A DNA stretch of 46,415 bases from Clostridia bacterium (lineage in GTDB: Bacteria > Bacillota > Clostridia > Oscillospirales > RGIG5554). The position numbers were made by a program, and so were the translations under genes. The stretch lies in NCBI GenBank assembly GCA_017507855.1, contig JAFWAE010000031.1, forward strand, positions 1 through 46,415, given 5' to 3'. Below are positions 850 to 26,775 of this stretch, piece after piece. Within the stretch, counting starts at the first letter, position 1. Each line of letters opens with the position of its first letter. The notes under the pieces are model-generated. The model saw only the letters and a list, made by a program, of their open reading frames with translations, was not told the origin of the DNA and did no database searches.

Positions 850-2097
850 TCAGCCTTCCTTCTGCAACATAGCCTCCAAGCGAAGTTTTAGGCGTTTACC
901 GAAGGCCTCGGGAGCTTCAGGCAAACGAAATTCGCCGGGGGCCTTCTCGCGCCATTGCACCTTGTTCAACGCCGCCAAGGCCTCTGCGGAAGAGGCAAAG
1001 GGCGTATCAAAAGCCGGAAGCTGGTGGGACGCCGGCATTTTCTTATGCCAATTGGAGTCGTTTTCAATAAAGCGAAGAACGCCCTCCACCGTTGCGGCCC
1101 ATTCCTCCTCTACCAACAGGCGGGCATATTCCCCGATGGCCTTCTGTGCCGTCAGGGAGGCATCCTTGGCCATGCGGGCAAAGGCGTAGAAATTCACCGC
1201 GCGGGTATAGGCACCGCCGCCTGACCAGTTGCCTGTCACGCCGTTGAAGCCCAGCTGACGAAGGGTGGTCAGCAGTTGATGAATATAGCGGGTCTCCAAC
1301 TGTACGCCGCCCCCTGCTCCGTCGCCGTCGTCGCATTCGTCCAGCAGAAAATAGGGCCAGCTCCAGATCCGCTCAACGCCCTTTTGCTTCAGTGTCTCCA
1401 GTTCCTCCTTACGGGGGAAGGGATCCGGCTGTACCTGCTCCTGCTCGTAACAGCGCAGGGTCAAAGCACGGTAGTAATCGTGGCAGGGCAATTCCACCCC
1501 CACGGAAGCGTTGACGGTGTTTTCATCCGCCAGCAAGCCGCGGAGCATTTCGCTTTCACGCTGCCAAAAGCAAGCCTGCCAAGGGGTATAGTCGGGTGTG
1601 GCAAAAGCGGACAGAGCCCAAGGATTGATGACGATGGGCTTTTCGGGCAGAACCTGACGGAACACCTGCACAAACCGCTCCGTCAAGAGCAGATAATCCT
1701 CCAGCTTTCCCTCGCCCAAGTCTTCGGTAATACCGCCGGGATCCGCGCCAAACATCATCAATCCGTCGGCCTCGCCACAGGCGGCTACACTTTGACGCAA
1801 AATAGCCTCTCGCGCCTCCATTTCAACCTGATTACGGGGATGAAACAGAGAAAAATACCAAGGCGTATCCCCCTCGGATACCTTGAAATTGGTTTGAAAG
1901 CCTACCCAGACCTCAAATCCGGCCTCTTTTGCGCTGTGGATCTCCTTTGCCATGCGCGTGCAATAATCCTCCAGCTGCCCCTCGCTCATGGCCTTTACGT
2001 CCAGCACCCAAAATTCCAAACGGTCACTGCCACAACTGCGCCAAAAATCGTGCATAGAGGGAATATCGTTAAAGGAATACAAACCAACTGTTTTCAT
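850..2097 (-). CDS. Unrecognised cytosolic protein, possibly a TIM-barrel glycosidase-like enzyme
   Basis: 415 aa with no signal peptide and no membrane segment. I do not recognise the family. Alternating strand/helix segments such as RLEFWVLDV, GFEVWVGFQTNF, EADGLMMFGADPGG, KPIVINPWALSAF and GFNGVTGNWSGGGAYTRAVN suggest a (beta/alpha)8 barrel with many aromatic and acidic residues at strand ends, as in sugar-active enzymes. This is only an inference from pattern. The start at 2097 is preferred over an upstream in-frame ATG at 2127: AAAGGA precedes it, and the best -10 box (TACAAT, 2126-2131) overlaps the upstream ATG, so that codon would not be in the transcript. It is a single-gene unit between two terminators. 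Confidence 0.6.
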   Translation of the reverse strand: MKTVGLYSFNDIPSMHDFWRSCGSDRLEFWVLDVKAMSEGQLEDYCTRMAKEIHSAKEAGFEVWVGFQTNFKVSEGDTPWYFSLFHPRNQVEMEAREAILRQSVAACGEADGLMMFGADPGGITEDLGEGKLEDYLLLTERFVQVFRQVLPEKPIVINPWALSAFATPDYTPWQACFWQRESEMLRGLLADENTVNASVGVELPCHDYYRALTLRCYEQEQVQPDPFPRKEELETLKQKGVERIWSWPYFLLDECDDGDGAGGGVQLETRYIHQLLTTLRQLGFNGVTGNWSGGGAYTRAVNFYAFARMAKDASLTAQKAIGEYARLLVEEEWAATVEGVLRFIENDSNWHKKMPASHQLPAFDTPFASSAEALAALNKVQWREKAPGEFRLPEAPEAFGKRLKLRLEAMLQKEG

Positions 2098-2125
2098 TAC
2101 GTTCACGTCCTTTAGGCTTTTTTTC

Positions 2126-2155
2126 ATTGTACTTGAAACAAAACGTAAAAGTCAA
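2126..2155 (-). promoter_or_regulatory. Promoter of the 850-2097 gene
   Basis: Minus-strand TTGACT (2150-2155), 18-base spacer, TACAAT (2126-2131). It overlaps the alternative upstream ATG and so helps decide the start. Confidence 0.6.
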
Positions 2156-2185
2156 GTGCTTTCGTGAATTTCCCATACAAAATGC

Positions 2186-2217
2186 AAAAAGAGACGGAAG
2201 ATCCCGTCCCTTTTTTA
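2186..2217 (-). terminator. Terminator of the XRE-TPR regulator
   Basis: Minus-strand GGGACGG/CCGTCTC stem followed by TTTTTGC, 15 bases past the stop of the 2232-3293 gene. Confidence 0.65.
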
Positions 2218-2231
2218 AGAAAACTCATGTC

Positions 2232-3293
2232 TTATCCCTTCAGCGACTGAAAACGGCTGTGAGAACGAAGGTGATCAAACTGCGCCAAGTCAAGATATTC
2301 ACCCAGCTCGCAGATCATAGGCGTCCCTTCGTTGCCCAACCACTCCCGCGTATCCTCTTCGATATGATCGAACCAGGGCGCCGTATATTTGTACACCCCC
2401 GGATTGGAGAAAACGATCCTGTCGTAAGCTGCAGCGTATTCCTTCATTTGTTCCAGCAGAGGGCAGATCTGCTCTGCCGAAGCATTGGGCTCCTGTCTGA
2501 GAAGATAATTGACCTTCTTTCTGACGGCATAGTACAGACGATGGTTAAATTCCACGTAATTTCCGTCAGGTATCATCACGTCAACGAGCTTTTGCATCAT
2601 GTCCGTATATACCTCGGGCATCAAAGAAAGATCCCAAAGGGCAGCTTCTAAATGGCCCTTGATCCGCTTTTGCTTGAACAGGATCAGCTCGTCGCCCTCC
2701 AAAACGTTCTCCAAAATCGCATCGCGGGTGATCACGGTCTGCTCCGGGAGCATCTCGGCATATTCTCTGGCTTCGTTCTTGCGGCCTCTCCACCCCAAAA
2801 GCTGAGTGATTCCCTGAATGGCGTACCCGCGAAGTATGTCATCCTGGCAGTTTTTCACTACGTCATCAAACAGCTTAATAGCCTTTTCCTGCTCTGCCGC
2901 GTACTTTTCCTCATCCGCATACTCAAAGGAGCGGTTGGAAACCACCCACGCCAGATTGCTCAACCATTTCATATCTCCGGGATATTCGGATACGGCCAGT
3001 TCACAGATTCTTTGCCGTTCCGCAAAATCTTCCGTTTGGAAAGTGTGCTCGTAGGCTTGCTTGAGTTCCTCATAGCGTTGGTCATTCGTTCCGTCGCAAA
3101 TGCCAAGCAGCTCGTCGGCGGAAATGTGAAAGATTTTGGTCAAGGGAATGATCAGTGACAGATCGGGGCTGGAAACTCCCGTTTCCCATTTGGAAACAGT
3201 TTGGAAGGTAATGTTAAGACGCGAAGCCAGTTGTTCCTGCGTCATATAATTCTTCTGTCTGTATTCCTTGATCTTTTTTCCGATAGAGTTCAT
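2232..3293 (-). CDS. XRE-family transcriptional regulator with long helical C-terminal domain
   Basis: 353 aa. Residues 5-60 form a classic Cro/CI helix-turn-helix (MTQEQLASRLNITFQTVSKW). The rest is alpha-helical, with a region around residues 70-200 that resembles TPR-type helical pairs, and no enzymatic motif. Such two-part XRE proteins are usually local or peptide-responsive regulators; the ligand here cannot be told. The AAGGAG site 7 bases before the ATG supports the start. It is transcribed divergently from tRNA-Gln, 240 bases away. Confidence 0.8.
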   Translation of the reverse strand: MNSIGKKIKEYRQKNYMTQEQLASRLNITFQTVSKWETGVSSPDLSLIIPLTKIFHISADELLGICDGTNDQRYEELKQAYEHTFQTEDFAERQRICELAVSEYPGDMKWLSNLAWVVSNRSFEYADEEKYAAEQEKAIKLFDDVVKNCQDDILRGYAIQGITQLLGWRGRKNEAREYAEMLPEQTVITRDAILENVLEGDELILFKQKRIKGHLEAALWDLSLMPEVYTDMMQKLVDVMIPDGNYVEFNHRLYYAVRKKVNYLLRQEPNASAEQICPLLEQMKEYAAAYDRIVFSNPGVYKYTAPWFDHIEEDTREWLGNEGTPMICELGEYLDLAQFDHLRSHSRFQSLKG

Positions 3294-16696: not shown

Positions 16697-17710
16697 TTAC
16701 CGTCTGTAATATTCTTCTGCGGCGGCAAAGAAGGCGTGAATATTTTCCCACTTGGCTGCAGGGGGAATGTCGCAGCCCGAGGAAATGACAAAATTGGGAT
16801 ACAGGGGGCAGCAATCTTCCATCAGCTTCAGCGTTTCCTCGCGAATACTTTCGGGCGTACCGTTTAAAAACTGACCCGCGGGATCCACGTTGCCCATAAT
16901 AAGGGTGTTGGGATCCGCCAGGGGCAAAATGCGGCGCATATCCACCGCGTTCCCGAAATGATAAGCATCGGCCCCCACGCGGAAAATGGAGGCAGCCATA
17001 TCGGCCACGTTATTGCCGCAATTGTGGTACACCACGGCAAAATGATCGTCCCTGACCGAAGCGATCAGCTCACGCACGTAGGGCTCGGAAAACTCTTCTG
17101 CCAGGGCGGGAGACAGCATACCCGTCAAGGGCTCGGCAATGACCACCCCATTGGCACCCGCCTCGCGGTAGGCCAGCATATATTCCTTCAAAAAGGCACA
17201 TGCTTTTTTCATGACCGTGTGTACCGCATCCGGCTGGGTATAGCAGGCTACCATGATCTCCGTCACGTCCATGAGGCGACCGGCCAAAGAAAACGGCCCG
17301 ATCACCCCTGCCAGCACGGGACGGTCGGTAATCAGCTCGCAGGCCTTACGGATCTCCTCCACGTACAGACCCGTGCGCCCTGCCCCCACAGCAGGGATCT
17401 GCAAGGCCTCGGCTTGCTCCTCGTCCTCCACCAGTGCCCCCACTACAGTGGGCACCTCATCCTCCGAACGACGGATCTGGGCGCCGAATGCTTCCGCCTC
17501 TACGGAAAGGTCCATCATGCTGACGCAAGCCGCGGCATCCACTGCCTCTGCCACCAACTTCATGCCCTTGGATTGCAATCCCGGCAAGGAAGTCATTTCC
17601 CTTACAGTAACCCCCATTAAAGAAACGGAGGGAAAGGAAAGAATGGGTAGCGGTTTTTTGGAATTTTGAAGACGCATCTGATCAAAAAACTGTTTCATAT
17701 CGCGTTGCAT
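16697..17710 (-). CDS. UroD/MtaA-family corrinoid methyltransferase-like protein
   Basis: 337 aa with a uroporphyrinogen decarboxylase-type TIM barrel. The zinc triad of methylcobamide:coenzyme M methyltransferases (MtaA/MtbA/CmuA) is present: HxC in VYHNCGNN and Cys in ISSGCDIPP, near the C terminus. That points to methyl transfer from a corrinoid protein rather than heme synthesis. No corrinoid protein, activator or other heme gene is adjacent, so the methyl donor is unknown. The start at 17710 (MQRDMKQFF) is chosen because GGGAGG lies 8 bases upstream; the longer frame has no ribosome site and crosses the promoter. A second, divergent family member lies at 35513-36643. Confidence 0.82.
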   Translation of the reverse strand: MQRDMKQFFDQMRLQNSKKPLPILSFPSVSLMGVTVREMTSLPGLQSKGMKLVAEAVDAAACVSMMDLSVEAEAFGAQIRRSEDEVPTVVGALVEDEEQAEALQIPAVGAGRTGLYVEEIRKACELITDRPVLAGVIGPFSLAGRLMDVTEIMVACYTQPDAVHTVMKKACAFLKEYMLAYREAGANGVVIAEPLTGMLSPALAEEFSEPYVRELIASVRDDHFAVVYHNCGNNVADMAASIFRVGADAYHFGNAVDMRRILPLADPNTLIMGNVDPAGQFLNGTPESIREETLKLMEDCCPLYPNFVISSGCDIPPAAKWENIHAFFAAAEEYYRR

Positions 17711-17744
17711 AATTTCGGCCTCCCAATGATTGTGCACACAGTAT

Positions 17745-17773
17745 AGCATATTCGACTGCAAAAAAGATAGCAA
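17745..17773 (-). promoter_or_regulatory. Promoter of the MtaA-like gene
   Basis: Minus-strand TTGCTA (17768-17773), 17 bases, TATGCT (17745-17750). Confidence 0.5.
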
Positions 17774-17856
17774 TATTTTGCTGTTTTTAGTAAAATCCCC
17801 TTCAATCTTCACCGAGGCTTTTTGTCAAAAAAGGCGAAACTTTTTTAGACAAATTC

Positions 17857-17885
17857 TTGACAAGTACACGGGCATCTGCTATAAT
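17857..17885 (+). promoter_or_regulatory. Strong promoter of the potABCD leader RNA
   Basis: Consensus TTGACA (17857-17862), 17 bases, TATAAT (17880-17885). It lies 375 bases before potA. Confidence 0.85.
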
Positions 17886-17891
17886 TCGAGA

Positions 17892-18240
17892 TAGAGTTCT
17901 TTGTCGGGCTTTTTCGACAGAACTGCTTGACCGCTTTTGCCTTTGCAAAAGCCAAGGCCACACGGACAGCCGGGTCAACTGCCGCGGGCGGCGACAGCGC
18001 CGCATTATTGATTGCGTTAAAAGCGCAAATTTTATGAGTTGGTTACTTTATAACCAAAAATTGTGTACGGGGTACACAGCTTGTGAAACGGTCAATAAGA
18101 GCAGTAAAAGTAGTTCTTGCTGTATAGGCTCTGCAACCTCTCCCACCGAACGGGCATTTTCCGTGCCGTAGTTTTTCCGCGTGGGGATTTGGTCGTTTTC
18201 TTGGCACGCTGTGTATACCGCAGCGTGCTTTTTTATTTTT
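17892..18240 (+). ncRNA. Long structured leader RNA upstream of potA (candidate riboswitch or attenuator, or stand-alone ncRNA)
   Basis: About 350 bases without a credible open frame that form a chain of perfect stems: AGTTC...GAACT around TGTCG/CGACA (17895-17922); TTGACC/GGTCAA closing a multi-branch with GCTTTTGC/GCAAAAGC (17928-17978); GCGGC/GCCGC (17988-18003); TTGCG/CGCAA (about 18012-18028); TTGGTTA/TAACCAA (18039-18057); TGTGTAC/GTACACA (18062-18077); AGAGC/GCTCT (about 18099-18132). A terminator (18204-18240) ends 20 bases before the potA ATG. CGTGCC (18162-18167) can pair either with a local upstream CGG-CA element or with GGCACG (18203-18208) in the terminator's 5' arm, a switch-like arrangement. 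It could also be a known free RNA such as the raiA motif; I cannot test this. Confidence 0.65.
18204..18240 (+). terminator. Terminator in the potA leader
   Basis: GCACGCTG, 9-base loop, CAGCGTGC, then TTTTTTATTTTT. Only 20 bases remain before the potA start, so no separate promoter fits between; readthrough or antitermination seems required. Confidence 0.9.
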
Positions 18241-18260
18241 CTTGAAAAGGGGTAAGGTTT

Positions 18261-19727
18261 ATGGCAGGGGACGAAAAAATCATTGAACTGAAAAACATTT
18301 GCAAAACCTACGATCTTCACGAGGCGGTCACCAATTTGTCGCTTTCCATACGGAAAGGCGAATTTGTGACATTGCTGGGACCCTCCGGTTGCGGAAAGAC
18401 CACAACGCTGCGTATGATCGCCGGGTTTGAAAAGCCTTCTTCCGGCACGATCCTTTTTAACGGCAAGGACATTACCCAGATCCCCGCCCATCAGCGCAAC
18501 ATCAACACCGTGTTCCAAAAATATGCCCTTTTCCCCCATTTGAACGTATTCGGCAACATTGCCTTCGGGCTTCGTTTCAAAACCGTGCCCGACGGAGAGC
18601 CCTATGAGGAAAACGGTGAAATGTATCAAAACGTGCGAAAGCTGACCAAGGTGGAGATCGCCGAAAAGGTGGAGCGCGCGCTGAAAATGGTGGATCTGGA
18701 AGGCTACGGCCACCGCCATGTCAATACCCTCAGCGGCGGTCAACAGCAACGCGTGGCCATCGCCCGCGCTTTGGTCAACGAGCCTGACGTTTTGCTTTTG
18801 GACGAGCCCTTGGGGGCTTTGGATCTGAAGATGCGTAAGGATATGCAGCTGGAACTGATGAGCATGCATAAAAAGCTGGGTATTACCTTCATCTACGTCA
18901 CTCACGACCAGGAGGAGGCTCTGACCATGAGCGACACCATCGTCATCATGCGCGACGGTGTCATTCAGCAGATCGGCTCCCCCAAGAAGATCTACGACGA
19001 GCCTGCCAACGCCTTTGTGGCCGACTTTATCGGAGAAAGCAACATCTTCTCGGGCATCATGCGGGAAGATTTCAAGGTGGAATTTATCGACACCCTGTTT
19101 ACCTGCGTAGACAAGGGCTTTAAGAAGGACGAGCTCATCGACGTGATCGTACGTCCCGAGGATATCCGTGTGACCGAAGCAAACAGCGAGAATGCTCAGA
19201 TCAAGGCCGAGGTCCTCTCCTCCGTATTCAAGGGCACCTATTACCAGACCACCGTACTCACAGTGGACGGAGAAGAACGCAACGAGCTGCTGGTGCATGA
19301 CAACGTAGAATGCCGCGAGGGCTCTGTCATCGGCCTGTACATCGAGCCCTACGATCTGCATATCATGCGCAAGAGCCGCCTCATCAACACGCTGGAGACC
19401 GTTATGTGGGACGAGGGCGTGGTGGAGATCTGCGGCGGCCGATTCCCCTGCACCTCCCTGCTCCCCTCCGGCACTCCCGTGAAGGTGGAGATCGATTTTG
19501 ACGACGTGCGTCTGTTTGACGACGAGGAGGACGGCATCATCGGCGGCGAGGTGGTGGACAGCATCTACAAGGGAAGCTACTACCAATGCATCGTCCGCGC
19601 CGACGACCGATATCAGTTCTTTATCGATACCGAGGACGATTGGCTGATCGGGGACAGGGTGGGCATTTCCGTGGATCCGGACAAGCTCATCGTCACCCCC
19701 TTGGAGGAGGCCTCCGCGAATGCGTAA
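18261..19727 (+). CDS. potA: Spermidine/putrescine ABC transporter ATP-binding protein
   Basis: 488 aa, over 100 residues longer than typical PotA. Seen: Walker [10 protein letters not shown] (40-48), Q-loop [10 protein letters not shown], signature LSGGQQQ (157-163), Walker B VLLLDEP (about 177-183) and H-loop THDQEEAL (about 213). Residues about 107-130 are an extra loop within the helical subdomain. The C-terminal part has two TOBE-like units rather than one: [16 protein letters not shown] and [15 protein letters not shown], about 110 residues apart. It energises polyamine import with PotB, PotC and PotD encoded next; its stop overlaps potB by 8 bases. GGGGTAAGG precedes the ATG. Confidence 0.94.
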
Positions 19728-20541
19728 GAAGCCTGTATCGGCGGTTTCCAAGGTGGGCCGCTTTTCCTTCCCCCGAAAGGCCTTTGCCTTTCCCTATATG
19801 CTGTTTTTGCTGGTGTTCATCATCGTTCCGCTGGTGATGGTGCTCATCAACGCCTTTATCGACGATGCCACGGGCAGGCTCACCCTGCGCAATTTCGTGA
19901 CCTTCTTTTCCGATTCCACAGGTCTGCGGGTGCTGGGAAATTCCTTGGTCATCGGCTTGCTGACCACGGGCATCTGCCTGCTTTTGGGCTATCCCGCCGC
20001 TTATCTGCTCAGCCGCCACCATGCAAGCAACCGCATTCTGGTGCTGCTGTTCATCCTCCCCATGTGGGTCAACTTTTTGATCCGTACCTTATCCACTAAA
20101 GCCATTTTCTTGGCTCTTGGCGTGGAATTGGGCATGGGAACGGTCATTTTCGGCATGGTGTACAACTACCTTCCCTTTATGATCCTGCCTCTGCACACCA
20201 CCCTTTCGGACATCGACCACGCCTACACGGAGGCCGCCTCCGATTTGGGCGCCGACGGGGTGCAGACCTTCCTGCGCACCACCCTGCCCCTTTCCGTCCC
20301 CGGCATCGTTTCGGGCATTACCATGGTGTTTATTCCCACCATTTCCACCTTTGCCATCTCCGAGTTACTGTCCAACCGTCAGATCTTTCTCTTCGGCGAC
20401 AGCATCCAAACCAAGTTTTCCCAAGGATTGTACGGAGTGGGCAGTGTGATGAGCCTGGTCATGCTGGCCTTCGTATTGCTTTCCAGCGCCGTACTCAACC
20501 GCTTAAACCGGGATGACCCGAAAGGAGGCTCTCTGCTATGA
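19720..20541 (+). CDS. potB: Spermidine/putrescine ABC transporter permease PotB
   Basis: 273 aa, six membrane helices; the first ([21 protein letters not shown]) follows a basic N terminus. The permease EAA loop [20 protein letters not shown] (about residues 168-187) contacts PotA. It overlaps potA by 8 bases and potC by 4, so the three subunits are translationally coupled. Length and motif fit the CysTW/MalFG-like PotB group. Confidence 0.95.
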
Positions 20542-21347
20542 AACCGAGCAAGCTCTTCGGCAATCTGTATTTGGCAGTGATCCTTACGCTGCTGTACCTA
20601 CCCATTGCGGTGATCGTGGTATACAGCTTCTCGGGCAACAGCAATTTCAGCTTCTCCCAAGGCTTTACGCTGGAGGCTTACCGCTCCATCTTCACCAGCA
20701 AGCAGACCCCTCAGCTGCTGGCCGCCTTGAAAAACACGCTGATCATTGCCGCCGTTTCCTCCGTATTTGCCACCGCTCTGGGCACCTTTTCCGCCGTGGG
20801 CATCCACGCGCTGAGCCGCCGCGCCAAGAACGCGGTGATGGGCGTCAACCAGCTTCCGTTGATCAACAGCGAGATCGTGATGGCCGTGTCCTTGATGATC
20901 TTCTTCGTCAACGCAAGCTTTATTCCTGAAGGAATGACCCGCCTCATTCTCAGCCACATTTCCTTCTGCACGCCCTACGTGGTGCTTTCCGTTATGCCCA
21001 AGCTGGTACAGATGGACCCCAATTTGTACGAAGCCGCCGCCGATCTGGGGGCCAACCGCTTCCGCACCATGAGCGACGTCATCCTCCCCTGCATTTTCCC
21101 CGGTGTGGTCTCGGGCTTTGTGATGGCCTTTACCATCTCTTTGGACGATTTCATCATCACCCAGATCAACAAGGGCGAAACGGGGATCGAGACCCTTTCC
21201 ACCTACATTTACGAGGACGCCCGCCTCAAAAGCCTGCAGCCGTTTTGGTTTGCCGTATTCAGCATCATCTTTGTTGTGGTGCTGGCAGTGCTGCTGCTCA
21301 TCAATCTGCGCCGAACCAAGCCCATCTCTTCCCCGGCTATTCATTAA
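20538..21347 (+). CDS. potC: Spermidine/putrescine ABC transporter permease PotC
   Basis: 269 aa, six membrane helices starting with LYLAVILTLLYLPIAVIVVYSFS, and the EAA loop EAAADLGANRFRTMSDVILP (about residues 166-185). It pairs with PotB to form the membrane channel. ATG overlaps the potB stop (ATGA). FTISLDDFIITQINKGE, typical of PotC, is present. Confidence 0.95.
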   Translation: MKPSKLFGNLYLAVILTLLYLPIAVIVVYSFSGNSNFSFSQGFTLEAYRSIFTSKQTPQLLAALKNTLIIAAVSSVFATALGTFSAVGIHALSRRAKNAVMGVNQLPLINSEIVMAVSLMIFFVNASFIPEGMTRLILSHISFCTPYVVLSVMPKLVQMDPNLYEAAADLGANRFRTMSDVILPCIFPGVVSGFVMAFTISLDDFIITQINKGETGIETLSTYIYEDARLKSLQPFWFAVFSIIFVVVLAVLLLINLRRTKPISSPAIH

Positions 21348-21370: not shown

Positions 21371-22732
21371 ATGAAAAAAGCTTTTGCCGTTTTACTTTCC
21401 CTCTTCCTGCTGTTGGCCTGCGCCCCCACGGCCTTGGCCGCCGAGGACAAGCTGGTCGTCTACAACTGGGCAGACTATATTTATGACATTGAGCTGACGG
21501 AGTTCAAGGCCTATTACAAACAAACCACGGGCCGCGAGATCGACGTCACCTACGTGACCTTTGACACCAATGAGACCATGCTGACCAAGGTACTCAAGGG
21601 CAACGCCCAAGTGGACGTCATCTGCCCCTCGGAATACGCCATTCAGCGTCTGATGGAGAGCAACGCCCTTCGCAAGCTGAACTATTTTACAGACGAAAGC
21701 TTTGTCAACAGCGACAAGATCAACCCCGATATCGTCACCAAGATCCGCGAAAGCTTCTCCGATCTGGAGCAGGATATGACCGAATACATGGCTCCCTATA
21801 TGTGGGGAACGCTGGGCATTCTCTACAATGCGGATAAGATCGATTCCGCCGATGCCGAGGCAGCCGGCTGGGGCTTGCTATGGAACCTGCAGCAAAACGG
21901 CACCGCCGTGGGCGCACTGGACAAGAAGATCTATATGAAGGACAGCATCCGCGACAGCTACTGCGCCGTGCTGCTGTACATGAAGGAGCGCAATCTCCTC
22001 CCCGAGGCCTATGCCTCCATGTCCGTACAAACGCTCATCAACACCGTAGACGACACCTTGCTTGCCTTGGCTAAGGAGACCCTGATCTCCCAAAAGGAAA
22101 GCCTGTACGGCTATGAGGTGGACTTCGGCAAAAACGAGCTGATCGCAGGCACGGCTTGGGTGGATCTGGCATGGAGCGGCGATGCGCTGTACGCCATTGA
22201 GGAGGCCGAGGCCGAGGGCGTAAACCTGCAATACTTTACGCCCGAGAGCGGTGCCAACATTTGGTTCGACGGCTGGGTCATCCCCAATAACTGCCAGAAT
22301 GAAGAGGCCGCACGTCTGTTTATCGACTTTATGAACCGTCCCGACATTGCCATGAAGAACATGATGGAGATCGGCTACTCCTCCGCGGTGGATGCCGAGG
22401 CTCTGCGCCAAAGCGAGGAGGCCATTGCTGTGTTGGCAGAGGCCTATGCCGACGATCCCGAGGATGAGCAGGAGGTAGCCGAGCTGGCGGAGGCGTACCT
22501 GTCCAATCCTGTTCGCTACCCCAATGTCAACGACGATACCCTGGGCGTGATGCGGGACTTCGGTGTCCACAACGAGCAGGTCGTGGTCATGTGGGAAAGC
22601 GTACGCGGCTCCAATATCTCCGTCGTCTCCATTCTGCTGGTGCTGGCCGCGGTACTGGTCGTGCTTGCCGCCGCCTTTGCCGTATTTACCTTGACCAACA
22701 AAAAGAAGCGCCGCCGCGTAAAGGCTTCCTGA
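21371..22732 (+). CDS. potD: Spermidine/putrescine-binding protein PotD with an extra C-terminal membrane anchor
   Basis: 453 aa, about 100 longer than usual. An N-terminal signal peptide (residues 1-23) contains LLAC, which could serve as a lipobox. The mature part opens with LVVYNWADYIYD, the hallmark of PotD/PotF, and has YMWGTLGILYN, GTAWVDLAWSGDA and EGANIWFDGW-like ligand-site motifs. A Glu-rich insert (residues about 365-385) interrupts the C-terminal domain. The protein ends with a transmembrane helix (about 418-440, SILLVLAAVLVVLAAAFAVF) and a strongly basic tail KKKRRRVK, so it may be anchored at both ends or only at the C terminus. AAAGGTAGG precedes the ATG; 23 bases after potC. 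Confidence 0.93.
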   Translation: MKKAFAVLLSLFLLLACAPTALAAEDKLVVYNWADYIYDIELTEFKAYYKQTTGREIDVTYVTFDTNETMLTKVLKGNAQVDVICPSEYAIQRLMESNALRKLNYFTDESFVNSDKINPDIVTKIRESFSDLEQDMTEYMAPYMWGTLGILYNADKIDSADAEAAGWGLLWNLQQNGTAVGALDKKIYMKDSIRDSYCAVLLYMKERNLLPEAYASMSVQTLINTVDDTLLALAKETLISQKESLYGYEVDFGKNELIAGTAWVDLAWSGDALYAIEEAEAEGVNLQYFTPESGANIWFDGWVIPNNCQNEEAARLFIDFMNRPDIAMKNMMEIGYSSAVDAEALRQSEEAIAVLAEAYADDPEDEQEVAELAEAYLSNPVRYPNVNDDTLGVMRDFGVHNEQVVVMWESVRGSNISVVSILLVLAAVLVVLAAAFAVFTLTNKKKRRRVKAS

Positions 22733-26208: not shown

Positions 26209-26555
26209 GGGGGCGTACCGGTTTCGACAGGGGCGCTGCAGTGTGATAAGCGGGCAGCGGTGCGGAACCGCTATAAAAGCCGTAAAACAAAAATAACTGA
26301 CAACTCTAAGTTAGCTGTCGCTGCCTAATTAAGGCAGCCGTCATACCCCGGAGGACCACGGCCGGGGCTATGGCGTGACTGAGTGGTGCACGTGAGGCGG
26401 CCAAGCTTTGCCCCGCCCATGAATCATGAAGCTACCAAAACGCAGAGCCTGCTGTTCGGCGCTGCGCAGAGGGAACGTTAAACGACCAGCTGCGCCCGGA
26501 GAAATTTGCATGAATTTGCTTTTGGACAGGGGTTCGACTCCCCTCGCCTCCACCA
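26209..26555 (+). ncRNA. ssrA: Transfer-messenger RNA (tmRNA)
   Basis: 347 bases. The tRNA-like domain is complete: 5' GGGGGCG pairs with 3' CGCCTCC and is followed by ACCA; the 5' part carries the conserved GGTTTCGAC, and the 3' end has the T arm AGGGGTTCGACTCCCCT. The tag frame ends in DNSKLAVAA followed by TAA (about 26297-26328), upstream part about KTKIT; the resume codon is near 26285, and the terminal AVAA fits the ALAA-type ClpXP tag. It rescues stalled ribosomes with SmpB. One-piece tmRNA with its own promoter and terminator. Confidence 0.96.
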
Positions 26556-26590: not shown

Positions 26591-26592
26591 CA

Positions 26593-26775
26593 ACTAAATC
26601 CACCCTTGCGGGTGGGTGAAATATTGCTTTGCAATGTGAAATACGCCTGCGACGTGTGAAATTCGCCTCGACGGCGAGTGGGTGGATTTCATTTCACTTG
26701 ATGCGATAGCATCAAATTTCACAATTTACGGAGTAAATTATTTCACCGTGAGCGTAAGCGAACGATTTCACTAAA
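26593..26775. repeat. Hairpin array 3, directly after tmRNA
   Basis: A run of small palindromes (ATTGCTTTGCAAT, CGCCTCGACGGCG, TTGATGCGATAGCATCAA, AATTTACGGAGTAAATT, GTGAGCGTAAGCGAAC) joined by GTGAAAT or TTTCAC. Outer inverted repeat AAATCCACCC (26596-26605) and GGGTGGATTT (26680-26689). It opens with TTCAACTAAATCC, the same junction as array 2 after tRNA-Gln. No gene. Confidence 0.85.

Follow-up and report, generated by a model that had tools for sequence, protein, structure and literature searches.

The window analysed here, a 46,415-nt stretch of DNA from a Clostridia bacterium (contig JAFWAE010000031.1), carries a potABCD operon behind a long leader region, and the question raised by this locus is how the operon is regulated. 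The first gene, potA (18261-19727, + strand), encodes a protein with ABC_tran and TOBE_2 matches in Pfam and a TIGR01187 score of 364.8 bits, above the cut-off of 355.6. The products of potB (19720-20541, + strand), potC (20538-21347, + strand) and potD (21371-22732, + strand) belong to Pfam permease (PotB and PotC) and substrate-binding (PotD) families, and their top NCBIfam matches are spermidine/putrescine transporter subunits, with scores below the equivalog cut-offs. The operon identity given in the original prediction, which had been made from the window alone, agrees with these matches. PotA is long (488 aa) and contains two TOBE_2 stretches.

A σ70-type promoter was found at 17857-17885 (+ strand; TTGACA-17-TATAAT). 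It matches the consensus at 12 of 12 positions and has an extended −10 element (TG before the −10), and transcription is expected to start near 17892. The 349-nt leader had a predicted folding energy of −120.1 kcal/mol compared with −104.3 ± 5.3 kcal/mol for shuffled sequences (z = −2.96); the comparison with relatives described below is much stronger evidence for the leader than this single-sequence fold. An intrinsic terminator is located at 18203-18240 (+ strand; −18.5 kcal/mol), in which a stem of 11 pairs (18203-18229; 5' arm 18203-18213, 3' arm 18219-18229) is followed by the U-tract TTTTTATTTT. The potA ATG at 18261 is separated from the end of the stem by 31 nt and from that of the T-run by about 20 nt. 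The promoter, the long structured leader and the strong terminator some 20 bases from potA had all been proposed in the original prediction and were recovered here. A divergent gene (16697-17812, − strand), whose product resembles an enzyme of the uroporphyrinogen decarboxylase/methyltransferase type as judged by eye only, starts in the same intergenic region, upstream of the leader promoter.

In an Rfam scan of the leader, 17928-17985 (58 nt) matched RF02440 (SpF59_sRNA) over model positions 1-54 of 54 with 66.6 bits, compared with a gathering score of 37.2, and no second family reached its gathering score even at E values up to 10. The leader is therefore not a raiA, 6S, T-box or SAM-I RNA, and the earlier statement that no established riboswitch class fits it held. 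The individual candidates were rejected as follows: raiA RNA (RF03072) gave no match at E values up to 10, T-box and 6S RNA gave no family match in the leader, and the four-helix SAM-I aptamer gave no match at E values up to 10 in 17800-18300 and has different helices. By score over the whole model, the window segment is a member of RF02440. It does not behave as the free-standing sRNA gene that the Rfam type of this family implies, on the evidence of its position relative to genes and of the covariation between its core and the terminator, both described below. From the Rfam alias "ldcC RNA", it is clear that the neighboring gene had been noted before.

In order to place the leader among its relatives, genomes were compared starting at the order level (147 genomes) and then in a sample of the phylum (398 genomes). 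RF02440 was found once per genome in 32 of the 147 and 18 of the 398 genomes, and the element overall in 37 and 25 genomes, respectively; only some genomes carry it, and in a single copy. At least 118 further loci were obtained by a pattern scan of genome contigs. The resulting set comprised 163 loci, i.e., the window and 162 others, all from Bacillota where named; the taxa among the matches listed include Clostridia, Bacilli (Paenibacillus, Bacillus, Neobacillus, and Lactococcus) and Negativicutes (Acidaminococcus). No copies were detected in viral contigs with a strict pattern. A promoter-like site lies directly 5' of the element in 130 of the 163 loci, compared with 25.8 expected from shuffles. 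Conservation reaches far past the Rfam model (...UUAUUGAUUGAG...ACUUGUGAAACGGUCAAUAAGAGUAGUAAAAGU...UUGCUAUAUAGACUCUGA). A covariance model built from 47 loci (R1) scored the window at 186.9 bits (E = 4e-53), and a model of the 3' core (R2) scored it at 78 bits (E = 9e-15); both searches found the element once in the window's own genome.

The first recognized downstream gene could be assigned in 155 of the 163 loci, and was speD in 52, an Orn/Lys/Arg decarboxylase gene in 41, potA in 31 and CASDH, the carboxy(nor)spermidine dehydrogenase gene, in 31. Together with L096, in which potA is also downstream, polyamine genes follow the element on the same strand in 156 of the 157 loci in which the first downstream gene can be read. 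Six of the remaining loci end with their contig. The one exception, L015 (G054, 1501-3053), precedes an M28 peptidase lipoprotein gene; it could be a relic, since its P10 region and 3' core are degenerate and R2 does not list its genome, or else a copy that has been retargeted. R1 detected seven further divergent loci in the phylum sample, all upstream of speD or a decarboxylase gene, and every further locus detected by R2 was upstream of polyamine genes. Representative operons contain genes for spermidine synthesis, namely speD (AdoMet decarboxylase), a decarboxylase gene, speE (spermidine synthase), the agmatinase gene, CASDH and nspC; the decarboxylase had no NCBIfam match at the threshold used, and CASDH resembled carboxynorspermidine synthase below the cut-off. 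These results indicate a conserved structured 5' untranslated domain in front of metabolically coherent genes, as expected of a riboswitch. Each sampled genome with the element has its single copy on either a synthesis or an uptake operon. In the window's own genome, which is 86% complete, SpeD gave no match in a search that had no positive control, and a partial match to an OKR decarboxylase was obtained.

The gene context bears directly on the reading implied by the Rfam entry, namely that the element is a stand-alone, trans-acting sRNA that lies upstream of potA by chance. In Streptococcus pneumoniae, F59/SN20/srn235 (SpF59) is filed as an sRNA between SP0915 and SP0916, and this RNA of about 327 nt was still treated as a putative sRNA in 2025. 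Terminated leaders do pile up as short RNAs, which could be taken for such a product. However, the element lies upstream of polyamine genes on the same strand across three classes, and covariation links its conserved core to the terminator that precedes the gene. F59 itself has the strand order < > > and is therefore in line with SP0916, which we take to be a lysine decarboxylase gene; the pneumococcal RNA resembles the window leader in its reported length and in lying upstream of a gene on the same strand. A chance position of a trans-acting sRNA is accordingly very improbable. The stand-alone RNA that the original prediction had offered as its alternative, with raiA as an example, also gave no raiA match and disagrees with the polyamine-gene context of 156 of 157 readable loci. 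A high Rfam score to a listed sRNA had been named there as evidence against an attenuator, and the RF02440 match is formally such a score. It does not refute the attenuator, because polyamine genes follow members of the family in nearly all genomes examined, and the segment modeled by Rfam is a peripheral domain that some of them lack.

Members without the SpF59 domain (L184, L187, L227, L234, and others) retain the P0 strand and the 3' core, and have no Rfam match in their leaders. The 3' core, which occurs once per genome, matches no Rfam family. RF02440 thus represents a peripheral domain that members may lack, and the actual core of the element is absent from Rfam release 15. While RF02440 is a 54-nt model typed as an sRNA, the element in the window is about 215 nt long (17919-18134) with its 3' core outside Rfam. 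The evidence obtained here favors cis control.

The proposed fold begins with the 5' strand of P0, AGAACUGC (17919-17926, + strand), which pairs with 18110-18117 and thereby joins the 5' end of the element to the loop of P10 as a long-range pseudoknot. In 146 loci, P0 strands paired with their own partners at −10.3 kcal/mol compared with −7.65 ± 0.17 kcal/mol for swapped partners, and none of 5,000 permutations was as good. The 5' domain corresponding to SpF59 (17928-17985, + strand) contains P1 (17928-17932 with 17973-17977), P2 (17933-17940 with 17945-17952) and P3 (17956-17958 with 17969-17971), with covariation support. In addition, a pseudoknot is proposed at 17963-17984 (+ strand) between CGG in the P3 loop (17963-17965) and CCG (17982-17984), which is nearly invariant and paired in 95.7% of alignment cells. 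All six pairs of the P4 hairpin (17988-18003, + strand; GCGGCG/CGCCGC) covary among relatives. The central domain (18006-18097, + strand), defined by RNAalifold and pair counts, consists of P5 (18006-18013 with 18090-18097) around P6 (18014-18026) and P7 (18033-18039 with 18079-18085), with P8 at 18041-18055 and P9 at 18062-18078. The best-conserved part is the 3' core, GCUUGUGAAACGGUCAAUAAGAGC...GCUGUAUAGGCUCUG (18078-18133, + strand), in which P10 (18098-18102 with 18128-18132) carries the 3' strand of P0 in its loop; a compensatory change is seen in P10, C-G in the window and U-A in most relatives. Seven loci (L070, L100, L107, L116, L125, L133, and L144), mostly with potA downstream, represent a lineage variant in which P4 is separated from the CGG/CCG pseudoknot by an additional hairpin.

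The alignment of related leaders suggested in the original prediction was examined for covariation. In this alignment (A1), the 55 proposed pairs of 11 helices were paired in 95.2% of cells compared with 25-41% when the partners were slid, P9 being omitted from the counts because it is poorly aligned. Double changes occurred in 132 cells and involved 18 pairs, compared with 34.7 ± 6.0 cells expected, and none of 500 shuffles was as high. RNAalifold recovered the majority of these helices. Covariation leaves P5 and the CGG/CCG pseudoknot unproven, since both hardly vary. The predicted multi-helix fold with its long-range P0 pseudoknot is supported by this covariation.

The same comparison bears on ribosome-mediated attenuation by a leader peptide, as with speFL or mdtUJI of E. 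coli. A short frame begins at a GUG in CUUGUGAAACGG in 40 of the 47 loci of the alignment, as such a mechanism would call for. On the other hand, a Shine-Dalgarno-like site precedes this GUG in 4 of 133 loci compared with 119 of 155 for true genes, 20 of 130 loci have indels that shift the frame, amino-acid changes are nonsynonymous, and core lengths modulo 3 are distributed 13/16/18. Since the frame is not kept and has no Shine-Dalgarno-like site, there is no conserved translatable uORF, and the leader-peptide attenuator was rejected as the least probable of the readings considered. The original description of the leader as free of a reading frame is in accordance with the lack of a conserved frame among relatives.

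A terminator between the core and the gene was detected in 130 of 155 loci compared with 3 of 80 shuffles, and a simple detector found none in the other 25; the distance from the end of the stem to the gene has a median of 55 nt in the related leaders. The 5' arm of the terminator has a single complementary site in the core, formed by the last part of P9 together with the ACUUGUG strand of P7 (−5.9 compared with −2.8 kcal/mol for shuffled arms), whereas other core windows gained at most about 1 kcal/mol over shuffled arms. In 117 loci, this strand paired with its own terminator arm at −9.54 kcal/mol compared with −8.21 ± 0.17 kcal/mol for swapped arms (z = −7.7; 0 of 5,000 permutations), and the advantage of own arms was also present within a gene class. 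In flanking control segments, own terminator arms were no better than swapped ones. In the window, the predicted 5' strand of the antiterminator is CACAGCUUGUG (18075-18085, + strand), which overlaps the 3' strands of P9 and P7 and pairs with 18205-18213 (18075-18080 with 18208-18213 and 18083-18085 with 18205-18207). The 5' arm of the terminator (18203-18213) thus doubles as the 3' strand of the antiterminator, and the aptamer with P7 and P9 closed and the antiterminator are mutually exclusive, since they share 18075-18085. A terminator and a covarying antiterminator are therefore found as alternative folds in the expression platform, as is typical of riboswitches. In energy calculations, which are only indicative since pseudoknots and ligand lie outside the model, the aptamer with the terminator had −74.7 kcal/mol and the antiterminator state −49.7 kcal/mol for the full RNA; before the terminator 3' arm is made, the values were −55.7 and −49.7 kcal/mol, with the same restriction.

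The layout of a transcription-terminating riboswitch or attenuator controlling potABCD, as originally predicted, is borne out by the terminator and the covarying antiterminator; the switch strand proposed at that time is not. Pairing of CGTGCC (18162-18167) with GGCACG can form, but the linker paired no better with its own arm (−7.26 kcal/mol) than with foreign arms (−7.66 kcal/mol) and is unconserved, and the competitor of the terminator is 18075-18085 instead. The putative cis-attenuator is well supported by the sequences compared here.

Based on this anatomy, the following mechanism is proposed. Transcription beginning near 17892 would yield an RNA that folds, at 17919-18134, into an aptamer held together by the pseudoknot of P0 and by P5, P7 and P10. 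With ample polyamine, this aptamer would be stable and keep the 3' strands of P9 and P7 (18075-18085) inside, the arm at 18203-18213 would be left free, and the terminator would form and turn potABCD off. When polyamine is scarce, P9 and P7 would open and CACAGCUUGUG would pair with the 5' arm of the terminator, so that no terminator forms and potABCD is transcribed. Because the target genes make or import spermidine, the most straightforward interpretation is that this polyamine acts as a negative effector. Direct binding of a ligand, spermidine as that ligand and the off direction upon binding are what we infer from this arrangement; the fold, P0, the terminator, the antiterminator pairing and the polyamine-gene context are the parts that sequence and covariation support. 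By analogy with the spermidine riboswitch of the SAM-I-variant type (PMC10853860), the off-switch logic would suit end-product control of synthesis and uptake.

Other candidates for the shared signal are putrescine, agmatine and decarboxylated SAM; alternatively, a protein might read the RNA. In the latter case, a polyamine-responsive RNA-binding protein rather than a ligand would stabilize one of the two folds, and the same fold, terminator and antiterminator would be expected. Antiterminator proteins usually bind short hairpins, whereas the conserved part here is large, complex and pseudoknotted; moreover, no recurrent partner gene is found beside the element, whose neighbors are enzyme or transporter genes. 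We therefore regard a protein-mediated attenuator as unlikely. A cis riboswitch that senses a different compound of the pathway (putrescine, agmatine, decarboxylated SAM, or MTA) is somewhat more doubtful still: speD and decarboxylase genes are frequent targets and PotABCD also imports putrescine, but spermidine is the one product common to all four target types, as judged from gene context and pathway knowledge. The routes to spermidine are speD-speE, CASDH-nspC, import by PotABCD, and a decarboxylase for its precursor. Taken together, the leader probably belongs to a widespread class of cis-acting RNAs, hitherto mis-filed, that control polyamine genes through transcription termination; most likely it is a riboswitch sensing spermidine.

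Selective polyamine riboswitches have long been sought because polyamines bind RNA unselectively. The variants of the SAM-I riboswitch (Salvail et al. 2023) are the only convincing published spermidine riboswitch class that we found; this four-stem RNA lies upstream of ldcC, speE, speB and speD in Bacillota and has a narrow range, and its authors expected more classes (PMC10853860). The family described here likewise precedes polyamine genes in Bacillota, but it differs in its pseudoknotted fold, its wider distribution and its potABCD and CASDH targets. It appears reasonably likely that it represents a second and much wider class of polyamine riboswitch, with a modular pseudoknotted aptamer (the 3' core and P0, with an optional SpF59 domain), that governs the synthesis of spermidine (through speD, decarboxylase and CASDH-nspC genes) as well as its uptake (through potABCD) throughout Bacillota, among them gut commensals, Paenibacillus, Lactococcus and, judging from the literature on F59, probably the pneumococcus.

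Other RNAs at polyamine genes differ more. The speF motif of alphaproteobacteria and the odc1 motif are analogous in being structured RNAs before ornithine decarboxylase genes; however, they occur in other taxa, the action of odc1 is on translation and involves an 11-aa uORF, and the window leader matches no Rfam family besides RF02440. Premature 3' ends are known in the potB 5' RNAs of Borrelia and in mdtUJI and the speA 5' UTR of E. coli, at genes for polyamine transport or synthesis, and are spermidine-dependent for potB and mdtUJI, but these systems depend on Rho, translation or a uORF and share no homologous RNA with the leader. A predicted terminator-type leader, the ABC-leader, precedes potABCD in Haemophilus somnus and Pasteurella multocida (PMC2965389); it is gammaproteobacterial and came from a terminator search. 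Our literature search, from which preprints and most subscription journals were excluded, found no paper naming the family or describing SpF59 as a riboswitch or polyamine leader.

The family provides widespread, ready-made test RNAs with a defined expression platform. If the proposed mechanism is true, one RNA on a synthesis or an import operon would balance spermidine in many Gram-positive bacteria. Transposon hits in F59/srn235 have been linked to lung fitness (PMC4387999), and a re-reading of this pneumococcal sRNA as the leader of the operon behind it is suggested.

Two further features of the window were observed. In the predicted fold of the leader, a 5' hairpin at 17894-17924 (AGUUCU...AGAACU) hides the 5' strand of P0, making it a possible second switch according to this model; a similar 5' hairpin can be drawn for L157. 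Further downstream, a tmRNA (26209-26555) is directly followed by a Gut-1 RNA (26591-26667), which belongs to an orphan sRNA family.
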